From: Microbacteriaceae bacterium PS02333
Lineage (GTDB): Bacteria; Actinomycetota; Actinomycetes; Actinomycetales; Microbacteriaceae
NCBI GenBank assembly: GCA_029959665.1
Contig: JASCOI010000020.1
Span: 1-36,166, forward strand
DNA length: 36,166 nucleotides
Reading direction: 5' to 3'
A model generated the notes under the pieces. It was not told where the DNA came from and ran no database searches. It was given only the letters and a program-made list of their open reading frames with translations. Numbering within the stretch: position 1 is the stretch's first letter; each line of letters opens with the position of its first letter. Position numbers and translations under genes: made by a program. Positions 28,496-31,899 of this stretch are shown here, in pieces.

Positions 28496-28971
28496 CGGGT
28501 GGCCGCCGTTCGTGGCCGCAGCAGCGTCGACACCCAGAGCCCCGCGACGACGGCGAGGAGGCCGAGCACGACCGTGAGCAGCGCGTACCCGCTGCCGGCC
28601 GTCCACCGTCCGTCCCCGAGCAGCTGCGCGGTGTCGTCCGCGAGCGTGCTGTACGTCGTGAACCCGCCGAGGACCCCCGTGCCGACGAAGAGCCGCAGGC
28701 GCCGACGCCGACCGACGTCCGGCCCGCGGTGTGCCAACGCCTCGAGCAGCAGCCCGAGGCAGAACGCCCCGACCACGTTGATCGCGAGGATCGTCCAACT
28801 GATCCCGTCCACGGCGGGGACGAGGTCCGCCAGCACGGCACGGATCGCGGTCCCGATCGCTCCGCCGAGCGCCACGACGCCGAGGTACCCCCAGCGGAGG
28901 TGCGGCGGCCGCTCGGGGCGGGCGGCGGGCTGGTCGGCTGCGACGTCGGGGTCGATCGGGACGCTGCTCAC
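28492..28971 (-). CDS. crcB: Fluoride channel CrcB/Fluc, first subunit
   Basis: This is the partner of the downstream Fluc subunit. The 159-residue protein begins with about 30 hydrophilic residues (PIDPDVAADQPAARPERPP), longer than the usual CrcB N terminus, followed by the four membrane segments with GGAIGTAIRA, INVVGAFCLGLL and GGFTTYSTLADD. GTG 28971 was chosen (starting SSVPIDPD); an in-frame GTG at 28989 would add six residues, and neither start has a clear ribosome binding site. It leads the crcB-crcB-phosphatase operon and is divergent from the repeat-peptide operon. Confidence 0.91.
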   Translation of the reverse strand: MSSVPIDPDVAADQPAARPERPPHLRWGYLGVVALGGAIGTAIRAVLADLVPAVDGISWTILAINVVGAFCLGLLLEALAHRGPDVGRRRRLRLFVGTGVLGGFTTYSTLADDTAQLLGDGRWTAGSGYALLTVVLGLLAVVAGLWVSTLLRPRTAATR

Positions 28972-28980
28972 GCGACAATC

Positions 28981-29011
28981 TTGGACCACCGTCAGCCGGA
29001 CGTCCTACGCT
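28981..29011 (+). promoter_or_regulatory. Possible promoter of the repeat-peptide operon
   Basis: TTGGAC (28981-28986) and TACGCT (29006-29011) are the same two boxes as at lipB, but 19 bases apart instead of 17. Transcription would start near 29018, leaving a leader of about 37 bases with a GGAGAGG ribosome binding site (29041-29047) seven bases before the peptide ATG. Confidence 0.45.
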
Positions 29012-29054
29012 CGGGCACACACGGCACCCGGCCGCATGACGGAGAGGGACGCAC

Positions 29055-29312
29055 ATGAGCATCAACGACGACGACATCACCACGGATCCCCAGAGCGCGG
29101 GCGAAGGCCCCGCTGACGGCGGCGCCAACCCGAACGGACACGACGGCGGCGCCGACGGCTCCGCGGACGCCGGCGAAGGCCCGGCCGACGGCGGCGCCAA
29201 CCCGAACGGACACGACGGCGGCGCGGACGGCTCCGCGGACGCCGGCGAAGGCCCGGCCGACGGCGGCGCCAACCCGAACGGACACGACGGCGGCGCGGAC
29301 GGCTCCGCGTGA
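29055..29312 (+). CDS. 85-residue repeat peptide, putative modified-peptide precursor
   Basis: I know no characterised function. A 14-residue N-terminal segment (MSINDDDITTDPQS) is followed by three 24-residue repeats, each opening AGEGPADGGANPNGHDGG and closing ADGSAD; the last lacks the final Asp. The peptide is extremely acidic and rich in Gly, Asp and Ala; each repeat has one His, two Asn and one Pro, and there are no Cys or membrane segments. A GGAGAGG site sits before the ATG. Its TGA overlaps the start of the JmjC oxygenase gene (GTGA), so the two proteins are coupled. The leader-plus-repeats layout next to an oxygenase resembles multi-core peptide precursors; a metal-binding or structural protein is also possible. 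Confidence 0.85.
   Translation: MSINDDDITTDPQSAGEGPADGGANPNGHDGGADGSADAGEGPADGGANPNGHDGGADGSADAGEGPADGGANPNGHDGGADGSA
29097..29309 (+). repeat. 72-bp tandem repeat within the repeat-peptide gene
   Basis: Three in-frame copies (29097-29168, 29169-29240, 29241-29309, the last three bases short). The second and third copies are identical over their shared length; the first differs from the second at four third-codon positions, all silent. The pattern suggests duplication plus selection to keep the peptide sequence. Confidence 0.9.
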
Positions 29313-30556
29313 GCCGAGGACCGGAGACGACGGAGACGGCGGCCGCCCTCGAGCGGTGCATCGCCGTCCCCGTCGCTCGGTTCGCCGAGGAGTACTGGGG
29401 CACCCGCGCGCTCGTGAGCAGCGCCGCTGACCTCGGCTCGACGTTCGATGACCTGTTCTCCACCGAGGCCGCCGACGAGCTGCTCTCGGTCCGAGGACTC
29501 CGGACGCCGTTCATCCGGATGGCGAAGGACGGCACCGTGCTCCCGCCGAGCGCCTTCACCGCACCCGGTGGCTACGGCGCCGAGGTCGGCGACCAGGTCA
29601 GCTCCGAGAAGGTCCTCGCCGAGTTTGCGGCCGGCTCGACCATCGTCCTGCAGGGCCTGCACCGCACGTGGCCGCCGATCCAGGAGTTCACACGACGCCT
29701 CGTCGCGGAGCTCGGGCACCCCGCGCAGGTCAACGCCTACATCACGCCGGCATCGTCGCGCGGCTTCGACCCGCACTACGACGTGCACGACGTGTTCGTC
29801 CTGCAGATCGCCGGGGCGAAGCGCTGGGTGATCCACGAGCCCGTGCACGAGCTCCCGTTCGCCGACGAACCGTGGAGCGACCGACGCGACGAGGTCGCCG
29901 CCCGGGCAGCTGGGACACCCGCGATCGACACCGTGCTCCGTCCGGGTGACGCGCTCTACCTCCCTCGCGGTTGGCTGCACTCGGCGACCGCACTCGGCGG
30001 CACGACCATCCACCTGACGATCGGCATCCCCGCCGTCACCCGGGCCGACCTCGCGCGGGACCTCATCACCCGTGCGCTCCGATCGGACCGACTCCGCGCT
30101 TCGCTGCCCCTCGGTGTCGACCTCGGCGACCCGGACCAGATCGCGGCGGACGTCCGCGCCGCTGCCGAGGACCTCATCGGGTTCCTCGAGTCGGCGTCGG
30201 TCGGCTCGGCCGTCGACGAGGTCGCACATGCGGTGGGTTCTCGGTTCCGACGCTCCACCCGGCCGGAGCCGGTCCGCCCGCTGCAGACGGTCGACCTCCT
30301 GAGCTCGCTCTCGAGCACCGATCGGGTCCGGTGGCGCGAGGGACTGCGCGCCGAGATCCGCGACGAGGTCGAGCGCGTGGCAGTCGTCCTGCCGACGACG
30401 ACGATCCGCCTGCCGGCATCGTGCGGTCCTGCCGTGCGCGCGCTGCACGCCGGAGGGACGCACGCCGTCGGGTCCTTGCCGGGCCTCGACGAGGACGACG
30501 CCGTCGTGGTGGTCCGTCGGCTCCTCCGGGAAGGCGTGCTGGTACCGGCGTCGTGA
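29309..30556 (+). CDS. JmjC/cupin-like 2-oxoglutarate oxygenase (ribosomal-oxygenase type)
   Basis: The 415-residue protein resembles the JmjC-type Fe(II)/2-oxoglutarate oxygenases of the ROX group (YcfD/RoxA, NO66, MINA53), which hydroxylate Arg or His residues in proteins. The iron ligands are visible: HYD (H156 and D158, in FDPHYDVHDVFVLQIAGAKRW) and the distal H224 in GDALYLPRGWLHSA. Segment 20-110 is the N-terminal lid, and residues about 250-415 form a dimerisation and winged-helix-like C terminus. The start is a GTG overlapping the repeat-peptide stop. The coupling suggests the peptide is a substrate; alternatively the target is a ribosomal protein. The next gene overlaps by GTGA. Confidence 0.9.
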   Translation: MSRGPETTETAAALERCIAVPVARFAEEYWGTRALVSSAADLGSTFDDLFSTEAADELLSVRGLRTPFIRMAKDGTVLPPSAFTAPGGYGAEVGDQVSSEKVLAEFAAGSTIVLQGLHRTWPPIQEFTRRLVAELGHPAQVNAYITPASSRGFDPHYDVHDVFVLQIAGAKRWVIHEPVHELPFADEPWSDRRDEVAARAAGTPAIDTVLRPGDALYLPRGWLHSATALGGTTIHLTIGIPAVTRADLARDLITRALRSDRLRASLPLGVDLGDPDQIAADVRAAAEDLIGFLESASVGSAVDEVAHAVGSRFRRSTRPEPVRPLQTVDLLSSLSSTDRVRWREGLRAEIRDEVERVAVVLPTTTIRLPASCGPAVRALHAGGTHAVGSLPGLDEDDAVVVVRRLLREGVLVPAS

Positions 30557-31506
30557 CCGAGTGGCGACGGACGGGTCCGGCCGATCCTCGACTCCCCGAT
30601 CCTCGACTCCCCCGCTCGGCCGGTGGGCCGGCGTGCAGCGACCGCTCCCGGTCCCGCGACGAGGACCTCACCGCCACCGCGTCCCCCGGGCGCCGCTGGT
30701 TGCTCGTCGAGGTCGCGGGTGCGTGGGGCTGGAACGTCTGGGCCGACTCCCCAGCGCTCCCGCCCGAGACCGGCATCGCCCTCGCCCGTCGGGTCCAGCG
30801 TGCCGGGATGCGCATCCTCGCGATCCGCCGTCCCGGCCGTTCCCGTGGTGCCGGTCGGTGGCGCTGGGCAGTCGTCGACACCGGGCTCGCGACCGTGCGG
30901 TGGGGTGAGGCCGACGGCCCGGACGAACTCCTGTCGCTCCCGCTCGACGGCAGGACCGGGACGCTCACCGACCGGCCCGTCTTCGCGGTGTGCGCACACG
31001 GCCGGCACGACGAGTGCTGCGCCGTGCGCGGACGGTCGGTCGCTGCCCGGCTGGCGGCGGCGTTCCCTGAGGAGACGTGGGAGTGCTCGCACCTCGGCGG
31101 TGACCGGTTCGCGGCGACGACGATGCTGTTCCCGTACGGCCTGAACCACGGACGCGTCGACGAGCTCGATCCCGTCGCGATCGCCGAGGCGTCGAGGCGC
31201 GGGATCGTCCTCCCGGACGGCTTCCGCGGACGGTCCCTGCACTCCCACGTCGAACAGGCTGCCGTCGCGGCAGCCGTGGCACGCTCCGGAGACCACCGGA
31301 TCGATGCCTTTCGGCCACGCAGTGTGCGCGCACCGGAGGCGCTCGACGACCCGGCCGGATGGTCGGTCGAACTCGACTCGGATGCCGGAGCCGTGCTGGT
31401 CACGCTCGATCGCGTGCACTCGGACCCGACGTTCTCGACGTGCCGCGCGACCGTCGCCGTGGAGATCCCCCGCTTCGTCGTCCGCGAGGTGACCACCGCG
31501 GGGTGA
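30553..31506 (+). CDS. Sucrase/ferredoxin-like (Suc_Fer) protein
   Basis: The 317-residue protein belongs to the sucrase/ferredoxin-like family, thioredoxin-fold proteins with ferredoxin-like [2Fe-2S] motifs; despite the name no sucrase activity is implied. Key parts are PACSDRSRSRDEDLTATA near the N terminus, WLLVEVAGAWGWN, CAHGRHDECCAVRGR with clustered cysteines, WECSHLGGDRFAAT and LFPYGLNHGR. GTG 30553 was chosen because it overlaps the oxygenase stop; the upstream open frame is only overlap. In this operon it could supply electrons or act as a redox partner, which is inference. A hairpin terminator at 31549-31582 follows. Confidence 0.88.
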   Translation: MTEWRRTGPADPRLPDPRLPRSAGGPACSDRSRSRDEDLTATASPGRRWLLVEVAGAWGWNVWADSPALPPETGIALARRVQRAGMRILAIRRPGRSRGAGRWRWAVVDTGLATVRWGEADGPDELLSLPLDGRTGTLTDRPVFAVCAHGRHDECCAVRGRSVAARLAAAFPEETWECSHLGGDRFAATTMLFPYGLNHGRVDELDPVAIAEASRRGIVLPDGFRGRSLHSHVEQAAVAAAVARSGDHRIDAFRPRSVRAPEALDDPAGWSVELDSDAGAVLVTLDRVHSDPTFSTCRATVAVEIPRFVVREVTTAG

Positions 31507-31548
31507 CCACCGCGGTGTGACCGGCATGCACCACCGGGCCCGGAACGA

Positions 31549-31582
31549 CGAAGGTCCCCGTCCGTGTGGACGAGGACCTTCG
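31549..31582. terminator. Hairpin terminator between the Suc_Fer gene and tRNA-Glu
   Basis: CGAAGGTCC (31549-31557) pairs with GGACCTTCG (31574-31582), with an inner CGTCC/GGACG stem over a GTGT loop. It lies between convergent transcripts, 3' of the Suc_Fer gene and directly 3' of the first tRNA-Glu, so it can serve both. Confidence 0.75.
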
Positions 31583-31587
31583 GTTGG

Positions 31588-31660
31588 TGACCCCAGCGGG
31601 ATTCGAACCCGCGTTACCGCCGTGAGAGGGCAGCGTACTAGGCCGCTATACGATGGGGCC
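31588..31660 (-). tRNA. tRNA-Glu (CTC), copy 1
   Basis: A 73-base minus-strand cloverleaf starts GGCCCCATCGTATAGCGGCC and ends with acceptor strand TGGGGTC and discriminator A. The anticodon loop is CTCTCAC, giving anticodon CTC for glutamate. GGTTCGAATCC marks the T arm. The CCA end is encoded (31585-31587). The anticodon stem contains one G-U pair. It is identical to the copy at 31700-31772, 39 bases away, and the two are probably cotranscribed. Confidence 0.97.
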
Positions 31661-31699
31661 GCGGCACACGTTGTCGGACTCGGGCTAAGCCACCTGTGG

Positions 31700-31772
31700 T
31701 GACCCCAGCGGGATTCGAACCCGCGTTACCGCCGTGAGAGGGCAGCGTACTAGGCCGCTATACGATGGGGCC
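31700..31772 (-). tRNA. tRNA-Glu (CTC), copy 2
   Basis: Identical in all 73 bases to the tRNA at 31588-31660, again with an encoded CCA (31697-31699). On the minus strand it comes first. The 39-base spacer between the copies differs from the other flanks, so only the mature tRNA (and the CCA) is conserved. Confidence 0.97.
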
Positions 31773-31899
31773 GTTCCGACAACTCGACAAGTATGGCACA
31801 AGCGGTCCGACCTGCCAAAACGAGGCGTGTCGCCCGGGTGTGCCGTCATGCCGCAGCGTGCATGCACGGGCCGAGCCGAGCCTCCAGTCCGGTCCCCGC

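Follow-up and report, generated by a model that had tools for sequence, protein, structure and literature searches.

A repeat peptide gene coupled to a ROX-type JmjC oxygenase and a variant iron–sulphur protein in actinobacteria: a probable peptide hydroxylation system

The locus described here raises the question of why a small repeat peptide should share an operon with an oxygenase of a family best known for modifying ribosomes. It lies in a stretch of 36,166 nucleotides (nt), hereafter the window, to which all positions refer, on the plus strand unless stated otherwise. The window is an entire contig (JASCOI010000020.1) from the Curtobacterium-like genome of Microbacteriaceae bacterium PS02333. 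Three plus-strand genes follow each other, for a repeat peptide, a JmjC oxygenase and a sucrase/ferredoxin-like (Suc_Fer) protein, and both junctions overlap at GTGA; the three open reading frames (ORFs) and the two overlaps are present where an earlier note on this DNA had put them. The known ROX members NO66, MINA53 and YcfD modify His or Arg in ribosomal proteins. In the system described here the repeat peptide is itself very probably the substrate of the oxygenase. The comparisons below also favour, with less assurance, a dedicated aspartyl β-hydroxylase acting on its own repeat substrate, in a system that resembles those of the ribosomally synthesised and post-translationally modified peptides (RiPPs) and would extend over more than one actinobacterial class.

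The peptide consists of a 15-residue leader followed by three repeats of GEGPADGGANPNGHDGGADGSA(DA), and Tandem Repeats Finder reports a 72-nt unit in 3.0 copies with 97% matches; together with the ORF this bears out the 85-residue product, with its short leader and three repeats, that had been read from the DNA earlier. The window's peptide has no match in Pfam or NCBIfam, and an NCBIfam scan of related peptides gave no meaningful match either. Among the first repeat units of 75 loci, nucleotide differences are split 17%, 9% and 74% over codon positions 1, 2 and 3, and across the three units the third position carries 74–75% of the differences (units 1 and 2 at 75 loci, unit 3 at 65). Frame 0, with a mean amino-acid identity of 87%, is the sole stop-free frame of the six; identity is lower in the other five, all of which are interrupted by stops, in 1 to 33 units. 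The repeat peptide is under coding constraint and is a real gene, since the codon-position pattern and the frame rule out a chance ORF or an RNA or DNA element. An antisense reading was also rejected, the reverse frame with 80% identity having stops in 13 of 75 units. Measured against the window over similar sets of relatives, the peptide (71–91% identity, 27 relatives) is better conserved than the oxygenase (51–82%, 27) and Suc_Fer (43–75%, 25). The peptide family is found in Mycobacterium, Gordonia, Rhodococcus, Dietzia, Leifsonia, Curtobacterium and others, and the nearest named relatives in the oxygenase search, among the matches listed, are from Curtobacterium.

The linkage of peptide and oxygenase is close. 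A search of named genomes with the oxygenase returned at least 116 relatives, and the best 80 loci were kept for examination (L and G numbers are labels for comparison loci and genomes). A script found the peptide beside the oxygenase in 78 of them; of the other two, L014 is masked amid a visible peptide and L054 offers no more than about 60 nt of sequence before the oxygenase gene. Among the 78, the peptide frame is broken in L064 and L090, and the peptide of L024 is cut by the start of the contig. Within the window's class, a peptide profile matched 41 of 394 genomes, and in all 41 the peptide lies directly upstream of the oxygenase on the same strand. The oxygenase itself is carried, at 1e-98 or better, by 64 of the 394; 23 of these have no match to the peptide profile, and in 21 of the 23 an Asp-rich upstream peptide could be read by eye. 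In the window's genus the peptide occurs in 8 of 60 genomes (one of them a part match), and of 36 congeners searched for both, the same four have peptide and oxygenase. Crude calling of ORFs of at least 100 residues within 5 kb of the 80 loci, a count for which the peptide is too short, placed the oxygenase cluster at all 80 and Suc_Fer at 59, and no further cluster in more than seven.

Beyond the class, 35 of 246 genomes from the phylum match the oxygenase at 1e-40, 24 of them out of class. For 20 of these 24 genomes the locus was examined: 18 have an Asp-rich peptide upstream, L280 starts inside the gene and L288 has none. Suc_Fer follows the oxygenase in 17 of the 20; of the remaining three, L279 ends right behind the oxygenase. 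The earlier note had inferred that the oxygenase modifies the repeats and had named lack of conservation of the peptide beside the oxygenase in relatives as one result that would refute this; that result was not obtained, and oxygenase and repeat peptide do form one system, the two being adjacent in 41 of 41 class genomes and in 18 of 20 loci outside the class. An earlier motif test was weak for the window's type of peptide (score 2 in 70/135 targets and 71/1810 controls), so reliance was placed instead on Asp density, a control that covers the distant types. Of 34 distant oxygenase loci, 30 have an upstream stretch of 30 residues with at least 10 Asp, a density attained by just 1 of the 511 control stretches taken from the same loci. 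The 34 are L009, L010, L158, L161, L165, L179–L188 and 19 loci of the phylum search, one genome, G036, being represented twice (L010 and L281); L009, L158, L184 and L288 fall below 10 Asp.

The peptides diverge considerably over this range. Beside distant oxygenases of the class the repeat is reduced to (ADGG)n (for example in L114, L117 and L152), at L179–L188 the upstream cores resemble GGDADGTDGDATDTTDGDAS, and at L189–L196 a micro-peptide of about 35 residues, ending like GGDSDGTDSSSDFI, lies upstream of the oxygenase. L189–L198 are ten weaker oxygenase matches that had been meant as negative controls, and they are unusable as such because eight of them carry the micro-peptide. Those of L189–L196 (family f35), with their TSRDITAGGDSDGTDSSSDFI-like end, are highly similar to one another; in both of the f35 loci that were tested, an S9 oligopeptidase gene lies further upstream. 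Peptide type tracks the enzyme tree, with 15 changes over 81 chosen rows against a mean of 38.5 after shuffling and a value as low in none of 200 shuffles, a test that shows clustering only and to which near-copies add. A search of 140 plasmid records gave only relatives of less than 60% identity. On an S. clavuligerus plasmid (L170:2757-2903) a cupin/JmjC gene is preceded directly by the gene of an annotated hypothetical protein of 48 residues, which contains DNDP and DPDP motifs, and has an S9 family peptidase downstream.

The oxygenase belongs to Pfam families JmjC_2 (3.3e-27) and Cupin_8 (2.4e-10); its match to PF08007 scores 95 bits against a cut-off of 22, and 28 of 28 aligned members match that family at the E-value limit used. 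The iron ligands H156, D158 and H224, reported earlier as intact, are indeed present and are kept at all 160 related loci (156 distinct proteins). K171 is kept along with them in all 160 oxygenases first examined and at 21 of 21 loci from the phylum search. The predicted structure is that of a full ROX-type hydroxylase, a single chain that includes the catalytic, the dimerisation and the winged-helix part, and is closest to NO66. The closest folds to the model are plain hydroxylases, and the nearest solved structures are histidyl hydroxylases (structural neighbours of both the oxygenase and Suc_Fer were taken from VIA-align). In the modelled C-terminal domain, four strands are followed by helices interspersed with short strands.

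The third protein matches Pfam Suc_Fer-like at 2.6e-12 (PF06999, 47.6 bits against a cut-off of 34.9). It is encoded beside the oxygenase in 77 of the 80 named loci (it was not found at L021, L046 and L061) and in 53 of the 64 class genomes with a close oxygenase, a figure made up of 50 adjacent pairs in the listed rows, G079 and G036, and G324, where the oxygenase frame is split. The putative role of redox partner, as first proposed, finds partial support: a [2Fe-2S] domain is modelled in this protein and its gene mostly comes next after that of the oxygenase, but it was not found beside the other 11. The canonical CX8C...HX3H cluster motif is altered, with CX8C kept and HX3H replaced by HX3D in 132 of 134 operonic copies, and the protein is therefore kin of the Aim32–Apd1 family rather than a canonical bis-histidinyl member. 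Position 184 is Asp in those 132 copies and Cys in the other two, whereas in 18 non-operonic copies it is His in 12 and Asp in 6; His152 is present in 132 of 134 operonic copies and 1 of 18 non-operonic ones. In genomes G102, G119 and G148 (family f47) there is no Suc_Fer beside the oxygenase; the copies that these genomes encode elsewhere (L258–L260) carry Lys at position 152, although their motif is of the HX3D type.

Which residue of the peptide would be modified is a separate question. The earlier note had pointed to one His and two Asn in the NPNGHDGG of each repeat. In the window's clade the first Asn is kept in 215 of 218 units and the His likewise in 215 of 218; the second Asn did not hold up, being Asn in 32 of 218 units and otherwise G, E, D, Q or others. 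In Dietzia (L065 and L068) the third repeat reads GADGG for GHDGG, with Ala in place of His, while the first two repeats keep the His, and in one unit of the Mycobacteriaceae locus L088 it is replaced by Gln. Further afield, divergent cores are built largely from Asp, Ala, Gly, Ser and Thr: that of L152 is (GGAD)n, and that of L273 is nearly pure Ala and Asp. Of 21 listed peptides, 3 have a His and 2 an Asn within their final 45 residues. The proposal of His or Asn as the target is therefore not sustained, for relatives with intact catalytic residues have cores that mostly lack both, and His as a universal target is ruled out by the relatives without it. Cores of this kind beside intact enzymes make Asp the better target; enzymes of this class are chemically ill suited to attack Ala or Gly, which leaves β-hydroxylation of Asp as the best reading. 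On this comparison of cores, Asp is probably the residue hydroxylated. Within the window's clade a further modification may fall on the His and the first Asn, or these two may serve as metal ligands.

It is proposed, then, that the operon would encode a dedicated substrate together with its own modifying enzyme. The oxygenase would bind the short acidic leader of the peptide (D-x-D-[IM]-x-T) and, as an Fe(II)/2-oxoglutarate ROX-type enzyme, hydroxylate the Asp of the Asp-Gly-Gly repeats at the β carbon, several times per molecule. The variant thioredoxin-like [2Fe-2S] protein would help, perhaps by keeping the iron reduced, or in a second oxidation. The product would be an intracellular peptide rich in β-hydroxyaspartate, which is a good ligand for metal ions; metal binding as its function is a guess, and a doubtful one. 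A little less doubtful, though still tentative, is the wider suggestion of a class of ribosomally made poly(β-hydroxyaspartyl) repeat peptides reaching beyond one actinobacterial class, made by ROX oxygenases with a [2Fe-2S] helper bearing a Cys/His/Asp motif, and serving as intracellular ligands of iron or calcium or as readouts of oxygen, iron or 2-oxoglutarate.

Several observations weigh against this proposal. Two of the 64 close class oxygenases, those of L155 and L157, have only acidic, non-repeat peptides upstream (their catalytic residues are intact and no Suc_Fer lies beside them), and no clear upstream peptide is seen at L163, L197, L198 and L288. The Suc_Fer gene is not found in cis for 11 of the 64, and so looks like a helper and not an essential partner. 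No exporter or protease cluster recurs around the 80 loci of the window's type, and the product may therefore stay in the cell, unlike most RiPPs. A RiPP recognition element (RRE) was sought by comparing the C-terminal domain of the oxygenase with 22 rows of PqqD, of which one was misframed, and the probability returned was 0.3%. The distant peptides were chosen as the most Asp-rich upstream ORF, so that the universality of Asp arises partly by construction. Finally, the best solved relatives of the enzyme hydroxylate His or Arg, not Asp, and the His of the repeat is nearly invariant in the window's clade.

These last two points speak for an activity peculiar to the window's clade, hydroxylation of the His, as by NO66 and MINA53, or of the Asn that is conserved in NPxGH: both residues are kept almost throughout the 218 units and the nearest solved structures are histidyl hydroxylases. 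Yet the same catalytic residues pair elsewhere with cores devoid of both, and the substitutions in Dietzia and at L088 show the His replaced within the clade itself, so that this explanation is improbable. Rather less probable still is some other oxidation at Asp or at the backbone in which the iron–sulphur protein would take part, for instance cleavage at Gly, cross-linking, or a conversion in the direction of aminomalonate. There is a precedent in another RiPP cluster, where, according to a passage in PMC13097080, SmaO and SmaX β-hydroxylate Asp on the way to aminomalonate. The frequent iron–sulphur neighbour suggests more than one step, but the closest folds to the oxygenase are those of plain hydroxylases, and 2-oxoglutarate hydroxylases need no electron carrier. 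The peptide might, lastly, be a disordered metal or stress protein, co-transcribed and unmodified, while the oxygenase acts on a ribosomal protein. The very acidic, glycine-rich peptide would suit such a role, and the ROX enzymes of E. coli and human do act on ribosomal proteins, as titles of structure entries also state; against it stand the tight linkage inside and outside the class, the common leader motif and the parallel divergence of peptide type and enzyme, and an operon present in just 8 of 60 congeners would be odd for a ribosome modifier. This explanation is accordingly the least probable of all, and hydroxylation of Asp in a dedicated peptide is retained as the preferred reading.

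The patchy distribution can be followed at the site itself. Two adjacent CrcB-like genes (Pfam PF02537; 28121-28989, minus strand) end just upstream of the operon and diverge from it, and two tandem tRNA-Glu(CTC) genes (31585-31660 and 31697-31772, minus strand) follow directly after it. Ten operon-free congeners were chosen; all carry the neighbouring CrcB gene, and seven show tRNA-Glu in the stretch examined. The gap between CrcB and tRNA-Glu, about 2.6 kb in the window, is about 36 to 193 nt in four of them and about 590–624 nt in three, and each of these three longer gaps holds one unrelated ORF, which we take to be RidA-like. The 11 stretches searched gave no convincing trace of the oxygenase or of Suc_Fer, the best match to the latter having E 0.7. 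The operon is gained or lost as one unit. Its features are collected in Table 1; no sigma-70 promoter or terminator consensus was found within 28900-31800.

Table 1. Features of the operon and its site in the window
Feature	Position	Strand	Remark
Shine-Dalgarno-like GGAGAGGG before the peptide gene	29041..29048	+	read from sequence
Repeat peptide gene, ATG start, 85 residues, short leader and three repeats	29055..29312	+	
Peptide leader, residues 1-15, with D-D-D-I-x-T motif common to relatives	29055..29099	+	
Repeat 1, 24 residues	29100..29171	+	
Repeat 2, 24 residues	29172..29243	+	
Repeat 3, 22 residues, reaching the C terminus	29244..29309	+	
GTGA, peptide stop overlapping JmjC start	29309..29312	+	read from sequence
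ROX-type JmjC oxygenase, GTG start, 415 residues	29309..30556	+	
Predicted iron ligand H156	29774..29776	+	160/160 loci, 21/21 further loci
Predicted iron ligand D158	29780..29782	+	160/160 loci, 21/21 further loci
Predicted iron ligand H224	29978..29980	+	160/160 loci, 21/21 further loci
GTGA, JmjC stop overlapping Suc_Fer start	30553..30556	+	read from sequence
Suc_Fer protein, GTG start, 317 residues; modelled thioredoxin-like [2Fe-2S] domain, residues 141-227	30553..31506	+	
Suc_Fer CX8C motif, C147 to C156, enclosing His152 (31006-31008)	30991..31020	+	
Suc_Fer HX3D motif, H180 to D184, where Aim32 has HX3H	31090..31104	+	
Operon-holding stretch, CrcB gene to tRNA-Glu; shorter and operon-free in congeners	28990..31584		

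In the open-licence literature searched, no description of the combination of peptide, JmjC oxygenase and Suc_Fer was found, nor were the strings GHDGGADG, GHDGGADGTA, DGGADGS, DDDDITT and ADGGSNP. The nearest published hint of such a system is a remark in PMC12710340, which reports RRE-like domains fused to PF08007 JmjC proteins in fish and algae, with the closest bacterial homologues (about 30% identity) in RiPP-like contexts; the section of that paper on PF08007 JmjC proteins gives no peptide, operon, Suc_Fer partner or target. What would be new here is a RiPP-like peptide hydroxylation in which a ROX enzyme has a repeat substrate of its own and is helped by a variant iron–sulphur protein. 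If this is true, the ROX oxygenases have a widespread branch with dedicated repeat-peptide substrates, and Asp joins their targets. The operon would offer a defined enzyme–substrate pair, and would hint at what an unannotated peptide family, and a Suc_Fer subfamily whose cluster motif is altered, do in the cell.

Several known systems invite comparison. With FIH, the asparaginyl hydroxylase of ankyrin repeats, the oxygenase has a smaller region in common (model residues 17-246), and we know of no dedicated substrate gene beside FIH. Yeast Aim32 and Apd1 have a CX8C and HX3H motif and a thioredoxin-like [2Fe-2S] fold, as described in the part of PMC8482512 that treats them; the likeness lies in CX8C, the HX3 motif and the modelled fold, and the difference in the operonic Asp for the second His and the new His152 (each 132/134). 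With RiPP systems in general the operon shares an encoded leader–core precursor, having a common leader motif, beside the modifying enzyme (41 of 41 adjacent). RiPP clusters are known to include JmjC and other 2-oxoglutarate oxygenases, and passages of PMC12257519, PMC12707348 and PMC13097080 describe BipG of biphenomycin as a JmjC enzyme and CorC of corallotide as acting in a peptide with five repeated motifs. The pathways of BipG, CorC and SmaO/SmaX, as presented in those passages, resemble the present one in having a small leader–core peptide beside a peptide-modifying oxygenase, and differ from it in that here the core is an Asp-Gly-Ala-rich repeat, Suc_Fer is usual, and neither an exporter nor a protease nor any further enzyme cluster recurs around the window's clade. 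Compared, finally, with the ROX-type JmjC hydroxylases NO66, MINA53 and YcfD (PF08007), the enzyme described here is encoded beside a dedicated repeat peptide.

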